Part shown: positions 22,197-34,611 of the stretch, one piece after another | Position numbering within the stretch: position 1 is the stretch's first letter | Layout of the letters: each line of letters opens with the position of its first letter | Origin: Rhodocyclaceae bacterium | Lineage (GTDB): Bacteria > Pseudomonadota > Gammaproteobacteria > Burkholderiales > Rhodocyclaceae | Assembly (NCBI GenBank): GCA_006218025.1 | Contig: VBWA01000027.1 | Span: 1-37,351, forward strand | DNA length: 37,351 nt | Direction: 5' to 3' | The notes under the pieces: model-generated | The model's input: only the letters and a program-made list of their open reading frames with translations | Database searches by the model: none | Told to the model about the DNA's origin: nothing | Program-made: the position numbers and the translations under genes

Positions 22197-24368
22197 ATGA
22201 CCCGCAAGATCCTCGTCACCAGCGCCCTGCCCTATGCCAACGGCGCGATCCATCTCGGCCACCTGGTCGAGTACATCCAGACCGATATCTGGACGCGCTT
22301 CCAGAAAATGCGCGGCCACGAATGCTGGTACGTCTGCGCCGACGACACCCACGGCACGCCGATCATGCTGCGCGCCGAGAAGGAGGGCATCACTCCCGAG
22401 CAGCTGATCGCGCGCGTGCATGAGGAGCATTCGCGCGATTTCGCCGGCTTCCATGTCGCCTTCGACAACTACTACACGACGCATTCGGAAGAGACGCGCC
22501 ACTATTCCGAGGACATCTTCGGCAAGCTCAAGGCCGCCGGCCTGATCGAAATCCGCTCGATCGAGCAGTACTACGACCCGGTCAAGCAGATGTTCCTGCC
22601 CGACCGCTTCATCAAGGGCGAGTGCCCCAAGTGCGGGGCGAAAGACCAGTACGGCGACGCCTGCGAATCCTGCGGCGCGGCCTATGCGCCGACCGACCTG
22701 AAGAACCCCTACTCGGCGGTGTCTGGTGCCGAGCCGGTGCTGAAGTCCTCCGACCACTACTTCTTCCGGCTTTCCGACCCGCGCTGCCAGGCCTTCCTGC
22801 GCGAGTGGACGCAGCGCGGCGGCCGCCTGCAGTCCGAGGCCGCCAACAAGTTGCAGGAATGGCTGGGGGCGCCCGACGAGAACAAGCTCACCGACTGGGA
22901 CATCTCGCGCGATGCGCCGTATTTCGGCTTCGAGATCCCCGGCGCGCCGGGAAAATTCTTCTACGTCTGGCTCGATGCGCCGATCGGCTACATGGGTTCG
23001 TTCAAGAATTTCTGCACGAAGAAGGGGCTCGACTTCGACGAGTTCTGGGGCAAGGATTCCAAGGCCGAGCTGTATCACTTCATCGGCAAGGACATTCTCT
23101 ACTTCCACGCCCTGTTCTGGCCTGCCGAACTGGAACACGCCGGCTACCGCACGCCGACCAATGTCTTCGCCCACGGCTTCCTGACCGTCGACGGCGCCAA
23201 GATGTCGAAGTCGCGCGGCACTTTCATTACCGCCGAGTCCTACCTGACACAGGGCCTCAACCCGGAGTGGCTGCGCTACTACTTCGCCGCCAAACTCAAC
23301 GGCAGCATGGAAGACCTCGACCTCAGCCTCGAGGACTTCACCCAGCGCGTCAATTCCGATTTGATCGGCAAGTACATCAACATCGCCAGCCGCGCGGCGG
23401 GCTTCATCGCCAAGCGCTTCGATGGCAAGTTGCAGCGGGAGCACGTCATCGCCCGGTTCAGAGCGGAATTGCCGGGATTGCTGGAAGCGGCGGATGAAAT
23501 CGCCGGGCATTACGAGATGCGCGACTACGCCCGCGGCCTGCGCAGCGTCATGGCCCTGGCTGATCGGGTCAATCAGTACGTCGACCGCAACCAGCCATGG
23601 CAACTGGCCAAGCAGGAAGGCCAGGACGCGAAGCTGCACGAGGTCTGTACGCTGCTGATCAACGCCTTCCGCCTGCTGACGATCTACCTCAAGCCGGTGC
23701 TGCCGAAACTGGCGCAGCGCGCCGAGGAATTCCTCAATGTCGCCCCGCTGCACTGGCGCGATGCCGAATACCTGCTGCCGCCGGCGCACCCGATCAATCC
23801 CTACGAACACCTGATGCAACGCATCGACGTCAAGCAGATCGACGCGCTGATCGCCGCCAACCGCGAATCGCTGGAACCCACAGCCGCGCCGGCCGCCGTA
23901 TCACCAGCACCGACTTCCGAGCCGCACTCGCCGCAACGTCATGCGCAGCACCAGCAGGCGATCATCCCCCCTCCCCAACCCTCCCCCGCGGGGGGGGAGG
24001 GAGTAAGTGGCGGCGCTTTCGCGCCGGTCATAGGGATTGACGACTTCAGCAAGGTCGACCTGCGCATCGCGCGCATCGTCGACGCGCAGCACGTCGCCGG
24101 TGCCGACAAGCTGATCCGCCTGAGCCTCGACATCGGCGAAGGCGACGGCAAGACGCGCACCGTCTTCGCCGGCATCAAGGCGGCCTACGATCCGGCCACG
24201 CTGGTCGGCCGGCTCACCGTGATGGTGGCCAACCTCGCCCCGCGCAAGATGAAATTCGGCCTCAGCGAAGGCATGGTGCTCGCTGCCTCGGACGCCGACG
24301 GCAAATCGCCCGGCATCTTCCTGCTCTCGCCCGACAGCGGCGCGCAGCCGGGCATGAGAGTGAAGTGA
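22197..24368 (+). CDS. metG: Methionyl-tRNA synthetase
   Basis: Charges tRNA-Met. The 723-residue protein has the class I HLGH motif near residue 21, a zinc knuckle with Cys143, Cys146, Cys156 and Cys159, and KMSKS at 335-339. A C-terminal EMAP-II/Trbp111-type tRNA-binding domain runs from about 612 to the end. Between the anticodon-binding domain and that appendix is an unusual proline-rich linker (about 561-612) encoded partly by repeat DNA. Translation begins at ATG 22197; the long in-frame stretch upstream is translated repeat. The stop overlaps the acyP start. It is normally next to apbC, from which it is now 4.9 kb away. Confidence 0.97.
23893..24010 (+). repeat. Repeat-derived insert in the metG linker
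   Basis: Two pieces lie in frame inside metG. The first (23893-23917) matches the edge of element C copy 4 in inverted sense at 23 of 25 positions. The second contains CCCTCCCCC (23979-23987) and GGGGGAGGG (23993-24001), a 9-bp stem with a GCGGG loop, resembling the common CT/AG-rich intergenic hairpin repeat. Both are translated into the low-complexity linker. Confidence 0.65.
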
Positions 24369-24640
24369 CCGAAACTCGCCGGCTGGTCATCACCGGCCTG
24401 GTGCAGGGCGTCGGCTTCCGCTACGGCATGGCGGCCGAGGCCCGCCTGCTCGGAGTCACCGGCTGGGTACGCAACCGCCGCGACGGCAGCGTCGAGGCCA
24501 TGATCGCCGGTAGCGCGGGCCAGATCGAAGCGATGCTGGAGTGGGCCAACGTGGGGCCGGGCGGCGCCCTGGTCGAGAACGTCATGTGCGAAACCGCGAC
24601 CGGCGAATTCGCCGACTTCGAGCTGCGACCGACCTCCTGA
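24365..24640 (+). CDS. acyP: Acylphosphatase
   Basis: Hydrolyses acyl phosphates in the cytoplasm. The 91-residue protein shows the family signature [37 protein letters not shown]. The phosphate-binding arginine is in GFRY and the catalytic Asn in VRNR. Translation starts with GTG overlapping the metG TGA (24365-24368). A decayed second copy lies at 28767-28869. Confidence 0.95.
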
Positions 24641-24801
24641 ATTGCGGCGAATCGGCGTTGCCCATCAGCAGATTCCTCAAGCGCTGATTCCTTCGTAGCG
24701 CAATCCAACGCAGCGTTGCAAGCAGGCAGACATGCCTTCCCCCGGCACATTCCATCGTGTTTGTTGCCCTCGTCATGATGCTCGATAATCGTTTCGGGAA
24801 T

Positions 24802-24826
24802 GACCGGGGTCAACTGCCGTCCGGTC
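24802..24826. promoter_or_regulatory. Inverted repeat upstream of the first acyltransferase gene
   Basis: GACCGG (24802-24807) and CCGGTC (24821-24826) flank a 13-base spacer, about 105 bases before the start codon. It could be an operator. No matching site was found before the paralogous gene at 28975. Confidence 0.3.
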
Positions 24827-24888
24827 TATAGCGCGGGCAGATGCTGTTTCTATTGAAGTCGGCCATTCCGTTTCAACCGCAATCAGCC

Positions 24889-24909
24889 GTGGCAATGCCA
24901 CTTTTTTTT
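24889..24909 (+). terminator. Terminator-like hairpin in the leader of the acyltransferase gene
   Basis: GTGGCA-A-TGCCAC is immediately followed by eight T (24902-24909). It lies only seven bases before the AAGGA ribosome site of the gene starting at 24930. It may simply end acyP transcripts, with the acyltransferase promoter missing or overlapping, or act as an attenuator for the downstream cassette. The short 6-bp stem limits confidence. Confidence 0.45.
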
Positions 24910-24929
24910 GTTGAAAAGGAAAATTTCAA

Positions 24930-25709
24930 ATGAAACCGAATACACGTGTGGAAGCAGGGAAACAAAACGGTACGGCATCTCGTGAAGATTCTCCGTCCAT
25001 GACGGAAGACAAGACGTCGCAACCGGCCATGGACGAGGAAAGGCTGCCGTTCCGCGTCGGGATAGTCCGCAACGAGGATGAACTGGAAAAGGCGGTTTCG
25101 ATTCGCCACGAAGCCTATGAGCGGCATATCCCGACGGTCGCGGCGCTGCTGGAAAAAGCCGAGGACTACGACAACGAGCCCGGTTCGGCGGTACTGCTGG
25201 CGCAATCCAAGCTGGATGGTTCGCCCCTGGGCACGATGCGGATCCAGACCAACCGCTACCGCAAGCTGGCGCTGGAACAGTCGGTGACATTGCCCCCATG
25301 GCTGCAAGGCAGGAGCCAGGCGGAAGCCACCCGTCTTGGCGTGGCCCACAGCAGCATGGGACCGATGGTCAAGACGGCGCTGTTCAAGGCCTACTACCAC
25401 TACTGCCTGCGGGAGCAGATCGAATGGCTGGTCATTGCGGCCCGCTCGCCAATGGATGAGCAGTATGAGTCGCTGCTGATGAAGGATGTGTTTCCCGGCG
25501 GCGAATTCACGCCGATGCTGCATGCCGGAAATATCCCGCATCGGGTACTGGCACTCAGGGTCGACCGCGTAGAACCTGAGTGGCGCCAGGCCAGGCATCC
25601 GCTATACGGCTTCTTTTTCCATACGCACCACGCCGATATCGATTTGCACGACAAGGAGGCCCCGGCGCCAGACGAGGAGGGCTGTCCAGCCTCGACTAAC
25701 GCCAATTGA
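24930..25709 (+). CDS. FeeM/LuxI-like N-acyltransferase, paralogue 1
   Basis: A 259-residue protein of the GNAT-fold N-acyl amino acid synthase (FeeM) group, relatives of LuxI autoinducer synthases. The first 35 or so residues are polar and disordered-looking. The core runs from LPFRVGIVRNEDELEKAVSIRHEAYERH (about 35-62), through GTMRIQTNR and AEATRLGV (the ExxR-like motif), to DVFPGGEFTPMLHAGNIPHRVLAL near 185-208. AAGGA lies nine bases before the ATG. It is followed by a GGDEF-EAL sensor, and the pair is duplicated downstream. The likely reaction is acylation of an amino acid or amine with a fatty acyl group from ACP; substrate and product are unknown. Confidence 0.78.
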   Translation: MKPNTRVEAGKQNGTASREDSPSMTEDKTSQPAMDEERLPFRVGIVRNEDELEKAVSIRHEAYERHIPTVAALLEKAEDYDNEPGSAVLLAQSKLDGSPLGTMRIQTNRYRKLALEQSVTLPPWLQGRSQAEATRLGVAHSSMGPMVKTALFKAYYHYCLREQIEWLVIAARSPMDEQYESLLMKDVFPGGEFTPMLHAGNIPHRVLALRVDRVEPEWRQARHPLYGFFFHTHHADIDLHDKEAPAPDEEGCPASTNAN

Positions 25710-25788
25710 TTTAAGCTGAATCTGTATGGCGGTAGAATCGCGGCTCGAAGCTGCCGGGTTTCTACTGCCACTGTTTGGGACAACAAAT

Positions 25789-28722
25789 ATGCGACGACCA
25801 TTTGGATCAGGCATCAGTACGGCGGTTGATACATTTCTGTACCGCCTTTCGGTGTATGGCATTCCTGTGGCTATTGGCATGGCATCGCTGGGCGCGCTGC
25901 TCCTGTTGCCGAATCAATATCCGCTGCAAGGCGCCAGTCGCCTTGAGCTAAACTCGTTCGAGCAGGGCGAGCAGACCCTGACGCCGCGCCAGGCGCTGGC
26001 GCGCTTGACCGACAAATCCGATCCGCCCCAACTCAATACGCGCCTGTCGGAGTCGCCGTTCTGGTTCAGCTTCGTGGCGCCGGCCAGCGAGCAGCCGGCA
26101 ATCGTGGAGTTTCCCTCCCGACATGCGCTGGATACCGCGTGCTGGAGCACGGCCGACCTGAGCCCCCTGGGCGCGGCGACGCGCACCGCGGCGGCGGGTG
26201 CCATGACTGCGACGAAGACCGGCTTTGCGCTGGCACTCGGGCAACTGCCGGCGCCAACCCGTGTGCTGTGCCAGGCCAGGCACACCGGTCCCGCCCATAT
26301 CTCTGCAACCCTGTGGCCGGCGGAGCCGTTCCGGCTGTCGCAACTGAAATTTCATCGCAACTCGGGTTTGCTGGACGGCGGCCTGATCGTACTCTCGCTG
26401 TTCGTGCTGCTGACCGCGATCGTCAGCCGCGAGTGGCTGTACGTGCTGTTTGCCGCCTGGCTGGTCGCCAACCTGCGCATGGCGACACTTTCCGCCGGCT
26501 GGGATGTGCAGTGGCTGGAACGCATGGTGCCTCCGGACTGGACCATTCCGATGCGGAAGCTGACGACGTGCGCATATTATCTTTTGACCATAACCCTTTT
26601 CAGCCGGCTGTTTCGCCACGATCTGAAGGGGATGAAATACACCCTGTTGTTGCGCGTTGCGCAGTGGTCGTGTCTGCCCCTGCTGCTGGCGGCGATAAGC
26701 TTTCCGTTCGCACATTACCTGCCCTTGCTGTGGGTATCGAGCGCCTATACCGCCGGGGTGATCTTCTTTCTCCTTGCCCGCATCCTGATGCTGACGCGCT
26801 CCACGGTCGCGATGTGGTATGGCGCGGGGCTCGCCGTCGCAGTGCTTGCCAGCCTCAACGAAGTCGTGGCGGCCGCTTTGGGCTACCGCGACCTGATCGG
26901 CACCGTCAATAGCGTGACGGCGGCCCTGGTATCGAGCCTGCTGGCCGCACTGGCCATTGCCGAGCAGATGCGACTGGAGCGGCAGGAGCGAAGGAAGGCG
27001 CAGGATGAGTTGCGCAACACCTATGAAGCCATTCCAATCGGGCTGTTTTCGCTGGACGAACAAGGACGCATCGTCCAGGACAATCCTGCCTTCAGGACCA
27101 TGCTGGGAAAGCATGCGGGCGACGTCGCGCACTGGGGCGACGGCCTGGAAACCGACGCCTGGGAACGCTTGCAGGCCCTGGTCGACGATCCGGCCATGGA
27201 GGACATGGAGTTGCGGAGCCTCGCCGGTCACGGGGGAAGTCCACGCAGCTTCCTGGTCAGAGCGACGCGAGTCAAGGAGCGGATCGAGGGTTCGTTGCAG
27301 GACATCACGGCACGCGTCGAAGCGACTGAAAAGCTGCGTTTCCTGGCCGACCATGATCCATTGACCGGTATCTTCAACCGGCGCGGCATCGAGAAGACCT
27401 TCGAAGCGGCAAACAGTTCGCTTGCCGATGGCCATACGATGGCGCTGGCCTACCTGGACCTGGATCGATTCAAACTGATCAATGACCTTTTTGGGCATCT
27501 CGCCGGCGACATGGTGCTGAAAAAGGTCTGCGAGCGCATCAACATGATTCTGGTCGACGGACAGGTGCTCGGCCGCGTCGGCGGGGACGAGTTCGTGGTG
27601 ATTTTCCCGGACGGCCCGATCGACTCGGCCGACGGCATATGCCGACAACTTGTTGCCGGAATTTCCTCGGAAGCTTTCACGGTCGGGACGCGGGCATTTC
27701 AGGTCAAGTGCTCGATCGGCCTGGTCGAAGTCGCCGCAGGAACCAGGGAAGACGATGCCGTATCGCTGGCGGACCGCGCCTGCCGAAAGGCCAAGACCGA
27801 GCACGACGGCAACGTGGTGGTGTACCGGCAGGACATGGCGGTGTACGCGGAACGCACGGCGGAATTGCGCCTGATCCAGCGCCTGGACATGCCCCGTCCC
27901 GAGGGACTGTTCCTGATGATGCAGCCGATCATGTCCTTGCGGGATCCCCACGGATCGCTCAATTTCGAAGTTCTGCTGCGCATGCGCGATCATGACAATT
28001 CGATCGTGCCGGCCTGGAAAGTCATCACCGCGGCGGAACGCAACGGCCGCATCGCGACGATCGACAAATGGGTGCTCACGACAGCGCTGGAGTGGCTCGC
28101 CACCCATGCCGAAATTCTCAAGAACTCGAGTTACGTGTCGATAAATCTGAGCGGCGGTTCGCTCAACGACGAGAATTTCATCGAGGAGGCATTTGCCATC
28201 CTGGCGCGCCATGGCCCCACGGTGGAGCGGCTTTGCATCGAAATCACCGAGAGCGTGGCGCTGCACGACCTCGCCAATACCCGGCACTTCATCGACGGCA
28301 TCCGGAAGTACGGTGCGAAACTCGCCCTCGACGATTTTGGCGCCGGTTACACGTCTTTCTCCTATCTCAGGAGCCTGCCGGCCGATGCGATCAAGATCGA
28401 CGGTGCCTATGTCAAGGACTTGCTGGTCCATCCGGCCAATCAGGCGATTGTTCAGGCGATTGTCGATCTCACCCGCAATCTGGGCATGAAAAGCATCGCC
28501 GAATGGGCCGAAGATGTCCCCACGCTCAAGGCTCTGGCGGAGATGGGTGTCGATTATGTGCAAGGCTACGTGGTGTCCGTGCCGCTGCTGCCGGAAAGAA
28601 TACTGCTGGCCGGTTCCGCCGCGGACTGCATCGAAGACCAGAGCACGGCCCGCTTCGTCAGGGACTCGCTACCCGGAATTCGGGCGCGCGCCAATCAACC
28701 CACCCCCTATATTCTGAACTGA
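25789..28722 (+). CDS. Membrane sensor with PAS, GGDEF and EAL domains, paralogue 1
   Basis: A 977-residue c-di-GMP turnover enzyme. An N-terminal membrane helix leads to a periplasmic domain (about 40-200) with SPFWFSF, resembling 7TMR-DISM extracellular sensors. A multi-span membrane region (about 205-395) and a PAS domain follow (TYEAIPIGLFSLDEQGRIVQDNPAF, about 410-430). GGDEF is intact at 598-602 with no RxxD inhibitory site at the usual place. The EAL domain has EVLLR (Glu727) with INLS, EITES, DDFGAGYTSF, KIDG, IAEWAE and QGY all present, so both activities may be retained. An ATG at 25726 is in frame; 25789 is preferred for its GGGA and its spacing, like the paralogue's. Confidence 0.85.
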   Translation: MRRPFGSGISTAVDTFLYRLSVYGIPVAIGMASLGALLLLPNQYPLQGASRLELNSFEQGEQTLTPRQALARLTDKSDPPQLNTRLSESPFWFSFVAPASEQPAIVEFPSRHALDTACWSTADLSPLGAATRTAAAGAMTATKTGFALALGQLPAPTRVLCQARHTGPAHISATLWPAEPFRLSQLKFHRNSGLLDGGLIVLSLFVLLTAIVSREWLYVLFAAWLVANLRMATLSAGWDVQWLERMVPPDWTIPMRKLTTCAYYLLTITLFSRLFRHDLKGMKYTLLLRVAQWSCLPLLLAAISFPFAHYLPLLWVSSAYTAGVIFFLLARILMLTRSTVAMWYGAGLAVAVLASLNEVVAAALGYRDLIGTVNSVTAALVSSLLAALAIAEQMRLERQERRKAQDELRNTYEAIPIGLFSLDEQGRIVQDNPAFRTMLGKHAGDVAHWGDGLETDAWERLQALVDDPAMEDMELRSLAGHGGSPRSFLVRATRVKERIEGSLQDITARVEATEKLRFLADHDPLTGIFNRRGIEKTFEAANSSLADGHTMALAYLDLDRFKLINDLFGHLAGDMVLKKVCERINMILVDGQVLGRVGGDEFVVIFPDGPIDSADGICRQLVAGISSEAFTVGTRAFQVKCSIGLVEVAAGTREDDAVSLADRACRKAKTEHDGNVVVYRQDMAVYAERTAELRLIQRLDMPRPEGLFLMMQPIMSLRDPHGSLNFEVLLRMRDHDNSIVPAWKVITAAERNGRIATIDKWVLTTALEWLATHAEILKNSSYVSINLSGGSLNDENFIEEAFAILARHGPTVERLCIEITESVALHDLANTRHFIDGIRKYGAKLALDDFGAGYTSFSYLRSLPADAIKIDGAYVKDLLVHPANQAIVQAIVDLTRNLGMKSIAEWAEDVPTLKALAEMGVDYVQGYVVSVPLLPERILLAGSAADCIEDQSTARFVRDSLPGIRARANQPTPYILN

Positions 28723-28766
28723 GCAAGCCCACGCGCCCGGGCGAATCCGTCAAGGGATCTGATCGA

Positions 28767-28869
28767 GCGTCGGCTTCCGCTACGGCATGGCGGCACTGTG
28801 GTCGAAAATGTCATGAGCGAAACCGTGACCGGCGAATTCACCGATTTCGAGCTGCGACCGACGGGCTGA
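28767..28869 (+). pseudogene. Acylphosphatase fragment with 130-base internal deletion
   Basis: The first 28 bases are identical to acyP 24408-24435 (start GCGTCGGCTTCCGCTACGGC). The remainder matches acyP 24563-24640 at roughly 85% by eye and ends with a stop at the equivalent place. The missing 130 bases lie between two GGCGGC hexamers in acyP, so deletion by microhomology is likely and shifts the frame. The fragment has no start region. It precedes the second acyltransferase gene exactly as intact acyP precedes the first. Confidence 0.88.
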
Positions 28870-28974
28870 ATAGCCCCGCAACGCCCGGCGGACTGTGGTT
28901 AATTCCACACCAATTGCACTGCAACATGCCTCTCCCTCTTGTCACTTAAGTTAGAAACAGGCATATTCGACGCC

Positions 28975-29697
28975 ATGCCCTCGAAATCTAAAACTCAATC
29001 CAGCCTTTCGGAACGCCTGCCCTTTGTCGTGCGCTGCGTGCGCGACGAGTCGGAACTCGAGAAAGCGGTATCAATCCGCCGCAGCGCTTACGGGCGCCAC
29101 GTTCCGGAGTTGGCGGCGCGATTTGCAACGCCCGAGCCCAGCGACCTCGATGGCAGCAGCCGTGTCCTGGTGGCCCTGTCGAGGGTCGACGGTGCGCCGC
29201 TGGGCAGCATGCGCTTTCGCACCAACCAGAACCAGCCGCTGGATCTCGAACACTCCGTGACCTTGCCCGGGAAGCTCTCGGGCAGAGTCCTGGCGGAAGC
29301 GACACGCCTTGCAGTCACCCAGGCGGCCGTAGGACGGGTGGTGAAGGCCATGCTCATGAAGAGCATGTTCCTGTATTGCGAGGCCAACAGCGTTGACTGC
29401 ATCGTGGCTGCCGCCCGCACGCCGATGGACCGGTTCTACCACTGGCTGCTGTTCGAGGATGTCTTTCCCGGCGGCGAGTTTATCCCGATGGCCCATGCGG
29501 GCATGATCCCGCACCGGGTCATGATGTGCGACGTGGTCGCAACCAAGCGCCGCTGGATCGAAGCCGACCATCCATGGTTCGACTTGTTCTTCCGGGCCCA
29601 CCATCCGGACATCGAATTCGCTCTGGGCGCGAAAACCGCCGCCGGGCGCGATCATGACAGCGAAGAGGAAGCAGCAGCTTCGATGTCATTGCGCTGA
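28975..29697 (+). CDS. FeeM/LuxI-like N-acyltransferase, paralogue 2
   Basis: A 240-residue paralogue of the 24930 gene, about half identical by eye through the core. Shared blocks are LEKAVSIR, RVDGAPLGSMRFRTN (versus KLDGSPLGTMRIQTN), SVTLP, AEATRL, DVFPGGEF.PM.HAG.IPHRV and the HHPDI tail. It lacks most of the polar N-terminal extension. ATG 28975 is chosen; an in-frame TTG at 28939 would add 12 residues. It is followed after 67 bases by its own GGDEF-EAL partner. The chemistry is as for paralogue 1, with substitutions between the blocks that could change the acyl or amine substrate. Confidence 0.77.
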   Translation: MPSKSKTQSSLSERLPFVVRCVRDESELEKAVSIRRSAYGRHVPELAARFATPEPSDLDGSSRVLVALSRVDGAPLGSMRFRTNQNQPLDLEHSVTLPGKLSGRVLAEATRLAVTQAAVGRVVKAMLMKSMFLYCEANSVDCIVAAARTPMDRFYHWLLFEDVFPGGEFIPMAHAGMIPHRVMMCDVVATKRRWIEADHPWFDLFFRAHHPDIEFALGAKTAAGRDHDSEEEAAASMSLR

Positions 29698-29764
29698 CAC
29701 GCGCCATTCGGTTCCGAGGAATGGCAGTGAACCGATGTAGACCGACGGCGCGGATTCCGATTCA

Positions 29765-32755
29765 ATGAGTCCTCGTCGCGTTCGCCGATTGTTGCTTTTG
29801 GCTTCGCGGGATATTGTCCGCGGGTTCCTGCGGCGCAATTCCACCTGGCTGGAACGGCTTTGCGTCATTGGCCTTCCGTTCGCGCTGGCTTGCGTGATGG
29901 CGCTGGCGCTGGTGAATTGGGAGTCCGACGGCCCGCTCGGCAACGCCGTCGACGTGCCGTTCACTGCCATGGTCTTTTCCCCGGATGATGGCGGTATCAA
30001 ACCCGCCACGGCCCGCGAGGCCCTAGGCGGAATCCAGCCGGTTTCATCCTTCGACACACAGCTGTCGGAAGCGCCTGTCTGGTTCAGTTTCACGCCGCCG
30101 GTGCTCTCCGCCGACACGGCAGGCCCGCCGCTCGTTTACTTCCCGTCCCGCCATGCGCGCACGCTTTCCTGCTGGCGTGGTACCGCGTTGACCCCGCTGG
30201 GCAGCGCGACGCGTACCGGTACCAACGGGGCGCTGACATTGGCAAACGCCGGTTTCGCAACGACCTCCGTCGATCTCTCCAGCGTGCCGATCCTGTGCCG
30301 TGCCACATTCGTCGGCCCCGCCCGCCTTTCGGTCGCGGCCTGGAGATCCGCGGATTTCGACCGGACGGTGCAGGTTTTCGCCAACGACATGGGCATGCTC
30401 GAGGGCGGCCTGACGGTGCTGGCCGTGTTCATGCTGCTGGCCGCGATTGTCAATCGCGAACCCGTCTACCTGGTGTTCGTGGCCTGGTTGCTGGTCAATG
30501 CCCGGCTGGGCGCAATTTCCGCCGGATGGGATACGCACTGGCTCGGCCATCAGGTGCCGGCAGCATGGCTGGACGGGATACGCAAGTTCGTGCTGGCGGC
30601 GAATTTCCCGCTGACGGCCTACCTGTTCCTGCGGTTGTTGCGCAAGGACCTAGACCGGATCGACAGCCGGACGGTGCAGCAAGGACTGGAACTGCTCTAC
30701 ATTCCGATGTTCGTCGGCGCGCTTTTCCTGCCGTACCGGCAGTTCATTCCAATGCTGTGGCTCGGCTCCGTGGTCGGCTATGGCATCATCGTCTATCTGT
30801 TGGCGCGCATCCTGCTGGTTTCGCAGTCCCGCATCGCCCTCTGGTTCGCGGCGTCGCTGGCGGTGACCGCGATTGCCGCCTTTGCCGAAATAATCCGGGC
30901 GATGCTGGGTATGCCGGGACTTATCCCCTACGTCAACAGCGTCACCGCTGCACTCTGTTCCGGCCTGCTGGCGGCGACGGCGCTGGCCGAGCAGATGCGC
31001 AGTGAACGATCGGGCCGCGAGGAGGCCGAGGTCGCCCTGCGCAAGACCTATGATCAGGTTCCGGTCGCTTTCTTCACTGCCGACGCGACAGGGCGAATTC
31101 TGCGCGGCAACCCGGCCCTCGGTCGCCTTCTCGGCCAGCAGGCGCTGGACGGCAAGGCACACTGGCAGCGGCTCTTCGAGCCCGGGACATGGGAGTCGCT
31201 CAGCCTGACGCTGACCCAAAGCCCGCGAGCGCAATTGCGCTTCCAGTCCATCACCCAGGATGCCTGGTACGAGGTGCGGGCTTCGATCGGAGATGGACTG
31301 ATCGAGGGATCGATCGAGGACATCACCGAATCCGTCACCGCCAATCGCAAGTTGATGTATCTGGCCGACCACGACCAGCTTACGGGGGCGCTGAGCCGGC
31401 GCGCGATCGAACAGGCGCTGCGCGGCGCGATCCGGTCCGCCGGCCCATTGGCGCATAGCACGCTGGCCTATATGGATCTGGATCGGTTCAAGACGGTCAA
31501 CGATCTTTTCGGGCACACCGCCGGTGACGCGGTACTGCGCCAGTTCTGCGCCCAGGTCGTCAAGTCGCTCGGGGCCGACCATCTGCTCGGCCGCATCGGT
31601 GGCGATGAGTTTCTGATCCTGTTCAATGGCCTGGCGTTGGCGGAAGCCGGAGCAAAATGTCGCGAGCTGGTCGATCAAGTCGACGGCAGCTCGTTCCGGG
31701 TCAACGACCTGGCTTTCCGTATCGGCGTGTCCTTCGGCGCCGTGGAGGTCACGGCCGGGCTCGAGGTGGCGGATCTGATCTCCGCCGCCGATCGCGCGTG
31801 TCGCGAGGCCAAGCGCAAGTCCATCGCCGGCCATGTCGTTACCTACGGCGCAGACGCGCCCGCGTTTCAGGAACATGAGGAGGAACGGGCGCTGGTGGCC
31901 CGCCTTACACCGGAACAAGCGCCAAAATTCCTCGCCATCGCGATGCAGCCGATCATGTCGCTGCGCGATCCCTTTGGCGCGCTGGATTTCGAGGTGCTGC
32001 TGCGGGCGCGAGCACCGGACGGCACGGTGATGCCGGCGGGCCGGGTGATCGCGGTCGCCGAGGCGCACGGTCGCGTCGGGGTGATCGATCGATGGGTGCT
32101 GCGTGAAGTGCTGGAATGGCTCGACACCAATCTCGCACAACTGACCGCCACCCGTTTTGTGACCATGAATTTCTCCGGCGCCTCGATCAACGACGAGCAG
32201 TTCATGGCCGACGCCTACGCCATGCTGCGCGCCCACCCGCGCGCCGCCAGCCGTCTTTGCGCGGAGATCACCGAAGGAGTCGCCTTGCGCGACTTCGACC
32301 AGACGCGGCGGGTGATCGAACGACTGCGCGAGTTCGACGTAAAACTCGCACTGGACGACTTCGGTGCCGGCTACACATCCTTCATGTACCTGAGCGACCT
32401 CCAGGCGGATGTCATCAAGATCGACGGCGCGATCGTCGAATCGGCGGCTCGCCACCCGTCGCGCCTGTCCATCGTGCAAGCCATCAGCGACCTGTCGCGC
32501 AACCTTGGCATGCGCTCGATCGCCGAATGGGTCGAGGACGCAGAGACTCTGCGCGCCATGGCCGAAGTGGGCATCGACTACATCCAGGGCTTCGGCATCG
32601 CGAAGCCGATGGCGCCGGCAGAGATTCTGCTGGGCCCCCATGCCGCGCACTGGATCAGCGATCCCGCGATCAGGAAGGCGCTGGTCGATATCCAGGCGAA
32701 CCGCTCGGTAGTCGACGATGGCATCACCTTCAGTACCGGCAAGAACCTGCACTAG
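29765..32755 (+). CDS. Membrane sensor with PAS, GGDEF and EAL domains, paralogue 2
   Basis: A 996-residue paralogue of the 25789 gene with the same order: N-terminal membrane anchor, periplasmic sensor (LSEAPVWFSF near 105), multi-span membrane region, PAS (TYDQVPVAFFTADATGRILRGNPAL), GGDEF (intact at 612-616, no I-site) and EAL (EVLLR with Glu743, MNFS, EITEG, DDFGAGYTSF, KIDG, IAEWVE, QGF). Similarity is strongest in the GGDEF-EAL half and weakest in the periplasmic part, suggesting the two proteins sense different or differently modified ligands. It may make and degrade c-di-GMP at the inner membrane. The start at 29765 has no strong ribosome site. Confidence 0.86.
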   Translation: MSPRRVRRLLLLASRDIVRGFLRRNSTWLERLCVIGLPFALACVMALALVNWESDGPLGNAVDVPFTAMVFSPDDGGIKPATAREALGGIQPVSSFDTQLSEAPVWFSFTPPVLSADTAGPPLVYFPSRHARTLSCWRGTALTPLGSATRTGTNGALTLANAGFATTSVDLSSVPILCRATFVGPARLSVAAWRSADFDRTVQVFANDMGMLEGGLTVLAVFMLLAAIVNREPVYLVFVAWLLVNARLGAISAGWDTHWLGHQVPAAWLDGIRKFVLAANFPLTAYLFLRLLRKDLDRIDSRTVQQGLELLYIPMFVGALFLPYRQFIPMLWLGSVVGYGIIVYLLARILLVSQSRIALWFAASLAVTAIAAFAEIIRAMLGMPGLIPYVNSVTAALCSGLLAATALAEQMRSERSGREEAEVALRKTYDQVPVAFFTADATGRILRGNPALGRLLGQQALDGKAHWQRLFEPGTWESLSLTLTQSPRAQLRFQSITQDAWYEVRASIGDGLIEGSIEDITESVTANRKLMYLADHDQLTGALSRRAIEQALRGAIRSAGPLAHSTLAYMDLDRFKTVNDLFGHTAGDAVLRQFCAQVVKSLGADHLLGRIGGDEFLILFNGLALAEAGAKCRELVDQVDGSSFRVNDLAFRIGVSFGAVEVTAGLEVADLISAADRACREAKRKSIAGHVVTYGADAPAFQEHEEERALVARLTPEQAPKFLAIAMQPIMSLRDPFGALDFEVLLRARAPDGTVMPAGRVIAVAEAHGRVGVIDRWVLREVLEWLDTNLAQLTATRFVTMNFSGASINDEQFMADAYAMLRAHPRAASRLCAEITEGVALRDFDQTRRVIERLREFDVKLALDDFGAGYTSFMYLSDLQADVIKIDGAIVESAARHPSRLSIVQAISDLSRNLGMRSIAEWVEDAETLRAMAEVGIDYIQGFGIAKPMAPAEILLGPHAAHWISDPAIRKALVDIQANRSVVDDGITFSTGKNLH

Positions 32756-32835
32756 GCCTCGCCCGGGCAGCTGAACTCGCACGCGGGCTTTGCCGAGCCG
32801 ACTTTCGCCGCGCCGGCCCATGCCATAATCAAGCG

Positions 32836-34611
32836 ATGTTCCGTCTTTCCCGCGATATCCTGATCGGTTTTCTGCTGGTGTGCGCCGCGGCCTGGGGCCT
32901 GATGTCCACCCGCACCCTGCGCTTCGCCGACCAGTCGCTCTACGATGTCCAGGCTCGCTGGCTGCGCGCCAACGCGCCGACGCCGCTGGCCCATGATGTC
33001 GTGGTCATCGGCCTCGATGAGGCCGCCTACGAAACCATCCCGGAGCCCACGGTCCTCTGGCACACCCATCTGGCCGCCCTGTTCGCCGGCCTTTCGGCCG
33101 CGCAGCCGGCCGTGGTCGGGCTGGCGATACCGCTGCCGGTGCGCTCCTACGACTTTCTGGTGAAGGACATCGATGCCACGCTGATTGCCGGCATCTACCT
33201 GCTGCGCGGCGCGGCGCCGCTGGTGGTGGGCCAGCCGCCCGGCGTCGGCAAGCGGCTGCGCCCGATCGCGCCGGAACTGCTGGCCGCGATCGGCCCGGGC
33301 GCGGTCGCTTCGCTGGCCATCTGCGAGGACACCGACGGCACCGTGCGCCGCATCAACCAGCGCCGCTGCCGCTCCGATGAACAGCAGGAGCCGCTGGCGC
33401 TGGCCATGGCGAAACACCTGGGCCGTCAGGGCTCACTCACCGGCATGATCGACTACAGCGTGGGCGGCGCCATCGAATACACGCCGGTCGGCACGGTACT
33501 GGACTGGATCCACGGTGGCGAAAGCGAAAAACTGCGCGCCCTGGTCAAGGGCCGCGCCGTCGTGGTGGCAAACCTGCTGCCGACCGAAGCCCGCCATCGC
33601 CTGCCGGTGCCGCTGGCAGCGTGGGAGCCGGGCAGCCGCACCGAGCCGGGTGCCGTGGTGCACATCCAGGCCCTGCGCTCCCTGCTCGGACGCGGGCTGA
33701 TCGAACGCGTGCCGCAAAACCTGTCGCTGTTGCTGGCCGGCATCGGCACTCTGCTCTGGTTCAGCCGCGGCGGCTGGCTCAAGGCCCTGGTGCTGGCCGG
33801 CGTCATCGGCGGCTTCGTCGCCGGTTCCACCTTCGCGCTCTGGCACGGCAGCTACCTGCCCGTGGCGAACATCGTCATCGTCACCCTGCTCGCCTTCACG
33901 GCGCGACAGGCATGGGACTTCGCGCGCCGCTTCCGCGAAATGCAGACCTTGCGCAGCATGTTCGCCGGCCACGTCAGCCCGCAGGTGATGCGCGCCCTGC
34001 TCGGTGGAGAACTGCAAGTCGAGCAGAACGGCCGGCGCCAGAACGTGACCCTGCTTTTCGCCGGCATCCGCGGCTTCGCGGCGCGCAATGCGCAGTCGAC
34101 ACCCGAAGCCATGATCAGCCTGCTCAACCGCTTCCATGCCGCCGCCAGCATGGCGATCCAGAACAGCGGCGGCGCCATCGACAAGTATGTCGGCGACGGC
34201 CTGATGGCGACCTTCGGCCTGCCGCAACCGCTGCAGGCGCCGCAGCGCAACGCGCTGGAAGCCGCGCAGGAGCTGCTGTTGCGAGTCGACCAGCTCAACC
34301 TCGAACTCGCCGCTGAAGGCATCGAGCCGCTCAAGATCGGCATCGGCATCCACTGCGGCGGGGTGCTCGCCGGCCATGTCGGCTCACGCCGGCGCCGCGA
34401 GTTCTCGGTGATCGGCGACGCCGTCGCCGTCGCCAGCCGCCTCGAAGCCATGACCAAGGAATACGGGCATCCGGTGCTCTGCTCCCAGGATGTCGCCGCC
34501 GCCGTGGGCTTTGCCGGCGGCCTGACCGATCTCGATGCGCCGGTGGCGGATATGCCCCACCTCTGGGGCTGGACGCCGCCGCGGACGGCGCCGCGCGGAG
34601 GGGACAAGTGA
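32836..34611 (+). CDS. CHASE2-domain class III nucleotide cyclase homologue, probably inactive
   Basis: A 591-residue membrane protein: an N-terminal helix (about 7-24), a periplasmic CHASE2 sensor (about 30-300), three membrane helices near 295-360, and a class III cyclase homology domain (about 395-575). The fold landmarks are kept: IDKYVGDGLMATFG with Lys450 and metal Asp454, IHCGGVLAGHVGS and RLEAMTKEYG. The first metal aspartate is Gly410 (LFAGIRGF) and the transition-state asparagine is Ala531 (GDAVAVASRLE). A catalytic role is therefore doubtful. Its stop overlaps the permease start (GTGA), placing it at the head of an Mla-like operon. ATG 32836 gives the family N-terminus. Confidence 0.87.
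   Translation: MFRLSRDILIGFLLVCAAAWGLMSTRTLRFADQSLYDVQARWLRANAPTPLAHDVVVIGLDEAAYETIPEPTVLWHTHLAALFAGLSAAQPAVVGLAIPLPVRSYDFLVKDIDATLIAGIYLLRGAAPLVVGQPPGVGKRLRPIAPELLAAIGPGAVASLAICEDTDGTVRRINQRRCRSDEQQEPLALAMAKHLGRQGSLTGMIDYSVGGAIEYTPVGTVLDWIHGGESEKLRALVKGRAVVVANLLPTEARHRLPVPLAAWEPGSRTEPGAVVHIQALRSLLGRGLIERVPQNLSLLLAGIGTLLWFSRGGWLKALVLAGVIGGFVAGSTFALWHGSYLPVANIVIVTLLAFTARQAWDFARRFREMQTLRSMFAGHVSPQVMRALLGGELQVEQNGRRQNVTLLFAGIRGFAARNAQSTPEAMISLLNRFHAAASMAIQNSGGAIDKYVGDGLMATFGLPQPLQAPQRNALEAAQELLLRVDQLNLELAAEGIEPLKIGIGIHCGGVLAGHVGSRRRREFSVIGDAVAVASRLEAMTKEYGHPVLCSQDVAAAVGFAGGLTDLDAPVADMPHLWGWTPPRTAPRGGDK

Follow-up and report, generated by a model that had tools for sequence, protein, structure and literature searches.

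A FeeM-like acyltransferase gene paired with a 7TMR-DISM GGDEF-EAL receptor gene across Burkholderiales relatives, and a locus of a Rhodocyclaceae bacterium carrying two types of the pair

Two enzyme-receptor pairs in the window

The window analysed here is a stretch of 37,351 nt from a Rhodocyclaceae bacterium (GCA_006218025.1, contig VBWA01000027.1, positions 1 to 37,351), and all coordinates refer to it. On its + strand lie, in this order, metG, the acylphosphatase gene acyP, FeeM-like gene 1, receptor gene 1, an acyP remnant, FeeM-like gene 2, receptor gene 2 and a CHASE2-adenylate cyclase gene. An earlier note on this DNA had described two consecutive pairs, each a FeeM-like gene followed by a 7TM-PAS-GGDEF-EAL gene, and coordinates and Pfam domains confirmed this description. 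The span given in that note starts at acyP (24365-24640, +; PF00708, 71.2 bits against a cut-off of 22.5), a gene that the note leaves out. As read from the sequence, acyP starts with a GTG that overlaps the metG stop. It forms the left border of the insertion site, relatives sharing the metG-acyP order, and the cyclase gene (32836-34611, +; assigned by Pfam) forms the right border.

Pair 1 consists of FeeM-like acyltransferase 1 (type 1; 24930-25709, +) and receptor 1 (25726-28722, +; alternative start ATG 25789), and pair 2 of FeeM-like acyltransferase 2 (type 2; 28975-29697, +) and receptor 2 (type 2; 29765-32755, +), the latter assigned by Pfam and by its homologue in the relative G028. 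The ORF list starts FeeM-like 2 at TTG 28939; the G028 homologue begins at ATG 28975. Enzyme and receptor genes are separated by 16 nt in pair 1 (79 nt if receptor 1 starts at ATG 25789) and by 67 nt in pair 2, so that the spacing of about 70-80 bases noted earlier is fair given the 79 and 67 nt.

A terminator-like hairpin with a run of eight T, identified by consensus match only, lies at 24889-24909 (+), about 20 nt 5' of the FeeM-like 1 start codon. Downstream of it there is scant promoter space ahead of FeeM-like 1, and the hairpin is perhaps a leader attenuator. Hairpins occur at the equivalent position in three other loci of the home genus (L034, L038, L039). A general attenuator 5' of the FeeM-like gene was rejected: it was seen at 5 of 82 loci (82 of the 84 being used), against 1.2 expected from crude dinucleotide-block shuffles, and since four of the five are from the home genus, the feature is a local one only. 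Control by a riboswitch was likewise rejected, as Rfam gave no match up to E 1 across 24300-33000.

Both enzymes exceeded the cut-off of the Pfam FeeM family PF21926 (27 bits), with 30.9 bits for enzyme 1 and 31.4 bits for enzyme 2 (scanned as the ORF from 28939), and 26 of 28 relatives matched the family at E<=0.01. FeeM was the sole Pfam match; PilZ was absent, and no autoinducer synthase came up in Pfam at E<=1. For FeeM-like 1, a model built from a 28-row alignment (pLDDT 85.3) had FeeM 2g0b as its best structure match (E 7.2e-11, TMt 0.74), followed by further GNAT enzymes, the AHL synthases BjaI and LasI among them. The enzyme is thus predicted by the model to have the FeeM/GNAT fold and, judged from its sequence, is a divergent, low-scoring FeeM subfamily. 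Neither a profile search nor a single-protein search of solved structures, run for residue mapping, returned a FeeM match.

Residue conservation was assessed in 84 pairs, which remained when one short FeeM-like protein, six short receptors and seven duplicates were removed from 98 pairs. Among the enzymes, R59, A62, R65, H66, P68, E78, D81, D96, G101, R104, N108, R135, L136, P174 and Y179 were invariant (84/84), and position 132 held Glu in 79, Gln in 3, Gly in 1 and His in 1; substitutions were observed, for example, in L065 (Q), L090 (G) and L110 (Q). The five enzymes without Glu132 are possibly inactive or altered, with the receptor kept. Of 27 classical FeeM members, 24 have a Glu aligned with Glu132, and all 27 share Tyr179; the conserved catalytic Glu is Glu95 in FeeM and Glu103 in Nas354, according to the portion of PMC4897644 available to us. 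At window residues 170, 172 and 174, all 27 classical members carry an E-x-N-x-R motif, which we took from the alignment with these members and not from a published definition (the alignment omits L216, which has a stop, and L227 and L229, whose flanks are cut). At the same positions, a paired subset of 25 enzymes had A in 14 (170), R in 25 (172) and P in 25 (174). The segment of residues 170-174 resembles GNAT motif B. Because the classical motif is replaced, the donor or acceptor substrates may differ from those of classical members.

Both receptors matched GGDEF and EAL in Pfam, with a PAS match below threshold. The full proteins scored 28.3 bits (receptor 1) and 37.8 bits (receptor 2) against 7TMR-DISM_7TM (PF07695; cut-off 29); the sensor half of receptor 1, scanned alone, reached 30.9 bits, above the cut-off, and all 28 sensor halves scanned matched PF07695 at E<=0.01. 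By these sequence matches the receptor is a 7TMR-DISM protein. Pfam gave no DISMED2 match in receptors or sensor halves and no LuxR-type domain in the receptors. The sensor-half model (pLDDT 83.9) contains one helix of transmembrane length, a beta-sandwich and a helical bundle, and with the topology inferred from it the sensor half would be mostly in the membrane and periplasm. A PDB search with the model returned nothing at E 0.001 or better; the sandwich is similar to the periplasmic domain of RetS (3jyb; E 5e-3, TMt 0.67), and the entire model has only a weak likeness to human WLS and TMEM87A. Pfam, the model and intact motifs together describe receptor 1 as a transmembrane anchor, periplasmic beta-sandwich, 7TM, PAS, GGDEF and EAL, and receptor 2 has the same architecture.

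Between the two receptors, identity was 39% in the periplasmic domain, 44% in 7TM, 35% in PAS, 46% in GGDEF and 54% in EAL. The earlier view that conservation is highest in the catalytic half held, and its other part, that the sensor is lowest, did not, as the lowest value belongs to PAS. The EAL residues E, N, E, DD, K, E and Q were invariant in all 84 non-redundant receptors and GG[DE]EF was present in 82. Taking the usual spacing of an RxxD I-site as the criterion, none of the 84 receptors carries one.

Recurrence and linkage of the pair

A search for FeeM-like genes in 81 genomes (the window's own and relatives) gave 20 with a match. At 19 of the 20 fetched loci the FeeM-like gene was followed by a receptor gene in the same orientation, about 2 kb away in L043; at the remaining one (L047) the FeeM-like match lies at a contig edge. 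We then scanned GTDB species genomes with the FeeM alignment, which gave 277 relatives, and the best 80 were kept; some of these loci are contigs of the first 20, and the seven duplicates among the pairs compared come from this overlap. At 78 of the best 80 of 277, a receptor gene adjoins the FeeM-like gene, codirectionally in 72 and convergently in 6 (L097, L107, L109, L112, L117, L121). A same-strand receptor lay within 1.5 kb at 70 of these 80 loci and after about 2 kb at one (L054); at L093 the contig stops after the first 50-60 receptor residues (best E 8.6e-19). The two unpaired loci are contig ends, L060 and L108, where the sequence stops 2 and 150 nt past the match. As 6 of the 78 linked loci are convergent, the linkage is not operon hitchhiking alone. 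The receptors of the six convergent loci formed one clade (support 0.93), and their enzymes did not form a clade. Other groups appear in the record titles of two of the best 80 of 277, L064 (Rhodospirillales) and L112 (Gammaproteobacteria).

We screened 250 genomes of the order, all at least 95% complete, for the sensor half at E 1e-20 and for the FeeM-like protein at E 1e-10. The same 14 genomes had both genes, and the remaining 236 had no match to either. Within the 14 genomes, 14 of 15 pairs were same-strand neighbours; in G228 the two genes are on separate contigs, with the FeeM-like match at a contig edge. In a class-wide draw of 323 genomes, with a few from the same order, only the window's own genome matched at E 1e-10. 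Among plasmid records, the pair was present at 13 of 13 matches, all in Paraburkholderia or Caballeronia. One of them (L175) is Paraburkholderia graminis plasmid pPHS1_P, which is typed as conjugative; past the pair, on its downstream side, come another sensor diguanylate cyclase and a transposase. Recurrence of the pairing across genomes was a check set beforehand, and these surveys of loci, genomes and plasmids bear it out strongly. More divergent pairs were observed in genomes of family f10 (L162-L165), with the sensor half 27-32% and the enzyme 40-46% identical to type 1.

ORF clustering at 101 loci, of which L059 and L166 share sequence, gave a receptor cluster with 88 members and a FeeM-like cluster with 81; the next clusters had 10 and 8. 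Neither a third conserved gene around the pair nor a recurrent exporter gene was found by this clustering. Some other FeeM-type synthases have been linked to PEP-CTERM/exosortase systems. Such a link was rejected here, as the two exosortase matches of the window's own genome sit on other contigs and the 18 largest clusters at the 101 loci include no exosortase gene beside the pair.

The wider FeeM family (PF21926) was found at 119 places in 83 of the 250 genomes. Six of these places belong to the paired subfamily; of the remaining 113, with coordinates compared by reading, not one lies beside a sensor match. We therefore rejected pairing as a general habit of FeeM enzymes, and it is a property of this subfamily. 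The pair is a real and widespread module across Burkholderiales relatives, and it has no name: features are listed there in 3 of the 13 plasmid stretches, the gene table being incomplete, and the labels are a hypothetical protein beside an EAL protein in two and two hypothetical proteins in one. In our judgement, on sequence evidence, a functional partnership of enzyme and receptor is close to certain.

Co-divergence of enzyme and receptor, and origin of the double locus

Trees were built from 93 pairs (ten more added and one duplicate taken out). The enzyme and receptor trees were congruent: of 29 splits with support of at least 0.95 in the FeeM tree, 25 recurred at this level in the receptor tree and one was contradicted. 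The 11 type 2 pairs came out as one clade in either tree (support 1.0 each); the type 1 pair of the window belongs to a home-genus clade of seven (support 0.997 and 1.0). In the distance tests below, type 1 takes in all pairs with an enzyme nearer to FeeM-like 1; the distances are non-independent, and the correlations express co-divergence, not binding.

Within types, FeeM divergence was tied more closely to the sensor half of the receptor than to the enzyme half. Given the enzyme half, the correlation with the sensor half was 0.53 in type 1 and 0.42 and 0.40 in thinned sets (p 0.0005 each); given the sensor half, that with the enzyme half was 0.25 (p 0.0005), 0.12 (p 0.11) and -0.02 (p 0.52) in the same sets. 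When both types were pooled, the enzyme half was the stronger (0.52 vs 0.41), which speaks against a sensor-only effect. As a species control we added metG, which was obtained from 28 of the 29 genomes searched (all but G008). Given the enzyme half and metG, FeeM correlated with the sensor half at 0.63 (28 genomes), 0.75 (19, type 1 and outgroups) and 0.67 (9, type 2); given the sensor half and metG, it correlated with the enzyme half at 0.72, 0.17 and 0.19, respectively; and given both halves, it correlated with metG at -0.02, 0.27 (p 0.0015) and -0.25. A test for co-evolving synthase-sensor pairs had also been proposed in the earlier note; within types the greater weight of the sensor half persists when metG is controlled for.

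By domain, each given the other four, partial Mantel tests on the 84 pairs coupled FeeM to 7TM (0.37, p 0.001) and PAS (0.30, p 0.001), with lower values for EAL (0.10, p 0.044), GGDEF (0.09, p 0.055) and the periplasmic domain (0.06, p 0.18). In the 73 type 1 pairs the values were 0.35 for 7TM, 0.28 for the periplasmic domain, 0.13 for PAS, -0.05 for GGDEF and 0.13 for EAL, and in 40 column bootstraps 7TM exceeded EAL in 92.5%, GGDEF in 90%, PAS in 97.5% and the periplasmic domain in 80%. The sliding profile of type 1 stood at 0.18-0.30 in windows 40 to 439 and at or below 0.07 for windows starting at 390 or later. The 11 type 2 pairs gave a mixed pattern (periplasmic 0.56, EAL 0.32, 7TM 0.25, GGDEF -0.02, PAS -0.24). 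In the 402 cross-pairs of convergent with codirectional loci, 7TM held at 0.36, evidence against an effect of simple proximity between the enzyme gene and the sensor end, and the periplasmic domain dropped to 0.15.

Recurrent pairing and within-type co-divergence with the sensor half both fit a synthase with its cognate receptor, and this co-divergence favours the acyltransferase as the input. A synthase-receptor function is therefore likely on the sequence data, and the direction with the best support, which we hold with moderate confidence, is that each pair would be a self-contained module whose enzyme feeds its receptor. For chemistry, ligand, signal direction and output we infer the following course. 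The FeeM-like enzyme, in the cytosol, would couple a fatty acyl chain, with acyl-ACP as the probable donor, to a small acceptor amine. The product would be amphiphilic, could get to the membrane or periplasm and would be read there by the sensor half of the enzyme's own partner, through the RetS-like beta-sandwich, the 7TM bundle or both; the receptor would then shift its GGDEF/EAL balance and with it the c-di-GMP level. Several observations count against this model: in both pooled comparisons (0.52 vs 0.41; 0.72 vs 0.63) FeeM tracks the enzyme half at least as closely as the sensor half; across the 84 pairs the periplasmic domain showed no coupling while PAS did; the motif kept by all 27 classical members is replaced, and 5 of the 84 enzymes are without the Glu; the type 2 domain pattern is mixed; and there is no recurrent exporter gene.

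The pooled result would also suit the reverse direction, to which we give a small but real chance. Here the receptor would sense something else, c-di-GMP would control the acyltransferase, and the product, such as a surfactant or membrane lipid, would be the output. There is a precedent in FeeM-type synthases with a PilZ-like C-terminal domain, which make N-acyltyrosines and for which regulation by c-di-GMP has been proposed (PMC4897644, seen in part). However, the enzyme has FeeM as its sole Pfam match and is without PilZ, and within types its divergence tracks the sensor half more than the enzyme half.

That sensor-half signal would also suit a GNAT-fold enzyme that acylates the receptor protein or binds it directly, without any diffusible ligand, as would the strict partnership and the lack of a recurrent exporter; moreover, RpfR directly binds and inhibits its synthase RpfF, as stated in the accessible part of PMC6361424. 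We nevertheless consider it unlikely, because by structure the enzyme comes closest to an N-acyl amino acid synthase, a maker of small molecules, and because the model, by inferred topology, places most of the sensor half in the membrane and periplasm, away from a presumably cytosolic enzyme. It is very improbable that the two genes are linked only through joint inheritance as a neutral or mobile block: many genomic contexts, the position of the pair at an acyP-cyclase junction that is empty in relatives, and its occurrence on plasmids agree with such a block, but the linkage persists through the change of orientation at the six convergent loci, neither gene was found alone in the 250 genomes at the thresholds used, and all or nearly all receptors retain their active-site residues.

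Between the window's two pairs lies the end of an acyP copy followed by a G028-type acyP-FeeM2 spacer (28767-28974, +; assigned by sequence identity): 28767-28793 is identical to 27 nt of acyP at 24408, and 28789-28874 matches the end of acyP at 73 of 86 bases. By this sequence the remnant is a recombination scar. In relatives each type is found singly. In G010, G025, G022 and G014 the order is metG, acyP, type 1 pair and cyclase, and in G009 the cyclase is further off; G028 has a type 2 pair and no type 1 at the metG-acyP-cyclase site, with homologues 96% (enzyme), 95% (receptor sensor half) and 97% (receptor enzyme half) identical to type 2 of the window. At nine fetched type 2 loci there was no metG, acyP or cyclase in the stretch read. 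The site also occurs without a pair, as metG-acyP-cyclase in G001, G011, G015 and G017 and with a longer spacer in G005, G006 and G013. The metG-acyP-pair order was seen in loci named Sulfuritalea sp., Rhodocyclaceae and Rhodocyclales and in one labelled Burkholderiaceae.

The earlier note called the pairs tandem duplicated. A simple recent tandem duplication of one pair would account for two homologous pairs in tandem with an acyP fragment repeated between them, yet it is hardly credible and we rejected it on trees, identities and pair-free sites: the acyP fragment, presumably free of selection, keeps 73 of 86 bases, but the two FeeM-like proteins agree at only 118 of 247 aligned residues, type 2 is monophyletic in both trees with the window's type 1 in a separate clade, and the window's type 2 enzyme has its 96% identical homologue in a genome with no type 1 at this one insertion site. 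The 73/86 and 118/247 identities suggest that the pairs met later than they diverged. The sequences thus indicate that the pairs are old separate lineages, each single in relatives, that were joined at the metG-acyP-cyclase site, and the simplest reading is that a block of acyP and type 1 was inserted beside acyP at a type 2 site, or the reverse. The window would then hold a type 1 and a type 2 channel, united at one site by recombination. A wider proposal, which we offer tentatively as somewhat short of an even chance, is that a FeeM-like synthase of changed specificity and a dedicated 7TM receptor form a new class of cell-to-cell or self-sensing lipid signal, in which the receptor binds the product and directly sets c-di-GMP, with the types gathered by recombination at a shared site.

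Comparison with known systems

The literature search found no description of the pair, including FeeM with GGDEF; it covered titles and the starts of abstracts, with most subscription journals outside, so it is weak. The module offers an experimental handle, since each 7TM receptor is accompanied by a candidate maker of its ligand, and in the annotation seen the pair is nameless.

With classical FeeM the window enzymes share the Pfam family, the fold and a Glu, and they differ in the replaced E, N and R of the motif and in having a GGDEF-EAL receptor as partner. NAS-PilZ proteins make N-acyltyrosine and have a C-terminal domain modelled on a c-di-GMP-binding PilZ protein; by this description, in the part of PMC4897644 seen, the fusions are set apart from the window enzymes, which are without PilZ. 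The same source, as far as available, mentions a cAMP-activated synthase, NasP; given the CHASE2-adenylate cyclase gene flanking the insertion site, there could be a cAMP link to the FeeM-like enzymes. The enzyme model is also similar to the LuxI-type AHL synthases BjaI and LasI; unlike LuxI systems, there is no Pfam autoinducer-synthase match (E<=1), and the partner has no LuxR-type domain.

On the receptor side, the periplasmic model resembles RetS (3jyb, TMt 0.67), and the 7TMR-DISM c-di-GMP proteins compared were RgsP and NicD; a c-di-GMP census was consulted in part (PMC8846402). RgsP consists of DISMED2, 7TM, PAS, GGDEF and EAL, works with RgsM and has GGDQF and an I-site (PMC6107284, in part). 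The window receptors share its order of 7TM, PAS, GGDEF and EAL, but their kind has GG[DE]EF in 82 of 84 and an RxxD I-site in none, and a synthase partner goes unmentioned for RgsP in the accessible text of that paper.

Compared with the plan of RpfR, in which an FI domain is N-terminal and the ligand sits in PAS, the window receptors have PAS (weak), GGDEF and EAL, and their N-terminal part is modelled as a transmembrane helix, beta-sandwich and membrane bundle. RpfF is an enzyme of the enoyl-CoA hydratase (crotonase) type, whereas the window enzyme has FeeM as its sole Pfam match and a GNAT/FeeM fold in the model. The rpfF and rpfR genes are convergently transcribed, and RpfR is made up of FI, PAS, DGC and PDE domains, so that the window receptors differ in having a periplasmic domain and 7TM before PAS where RpfR has FI (PMC6361424, seen in part). 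The likeness lies in the arrangement, as in the BDSF system of Burkholderia and Cronobacter the gene of a synthase that works on acyl-ACP also stands beside that of a PAS-cyclase-phosphodiesterase receptor (the same part of PMC6361424). RpfF/RpfR is the closest working analogue of the module, which is not a member of that family.
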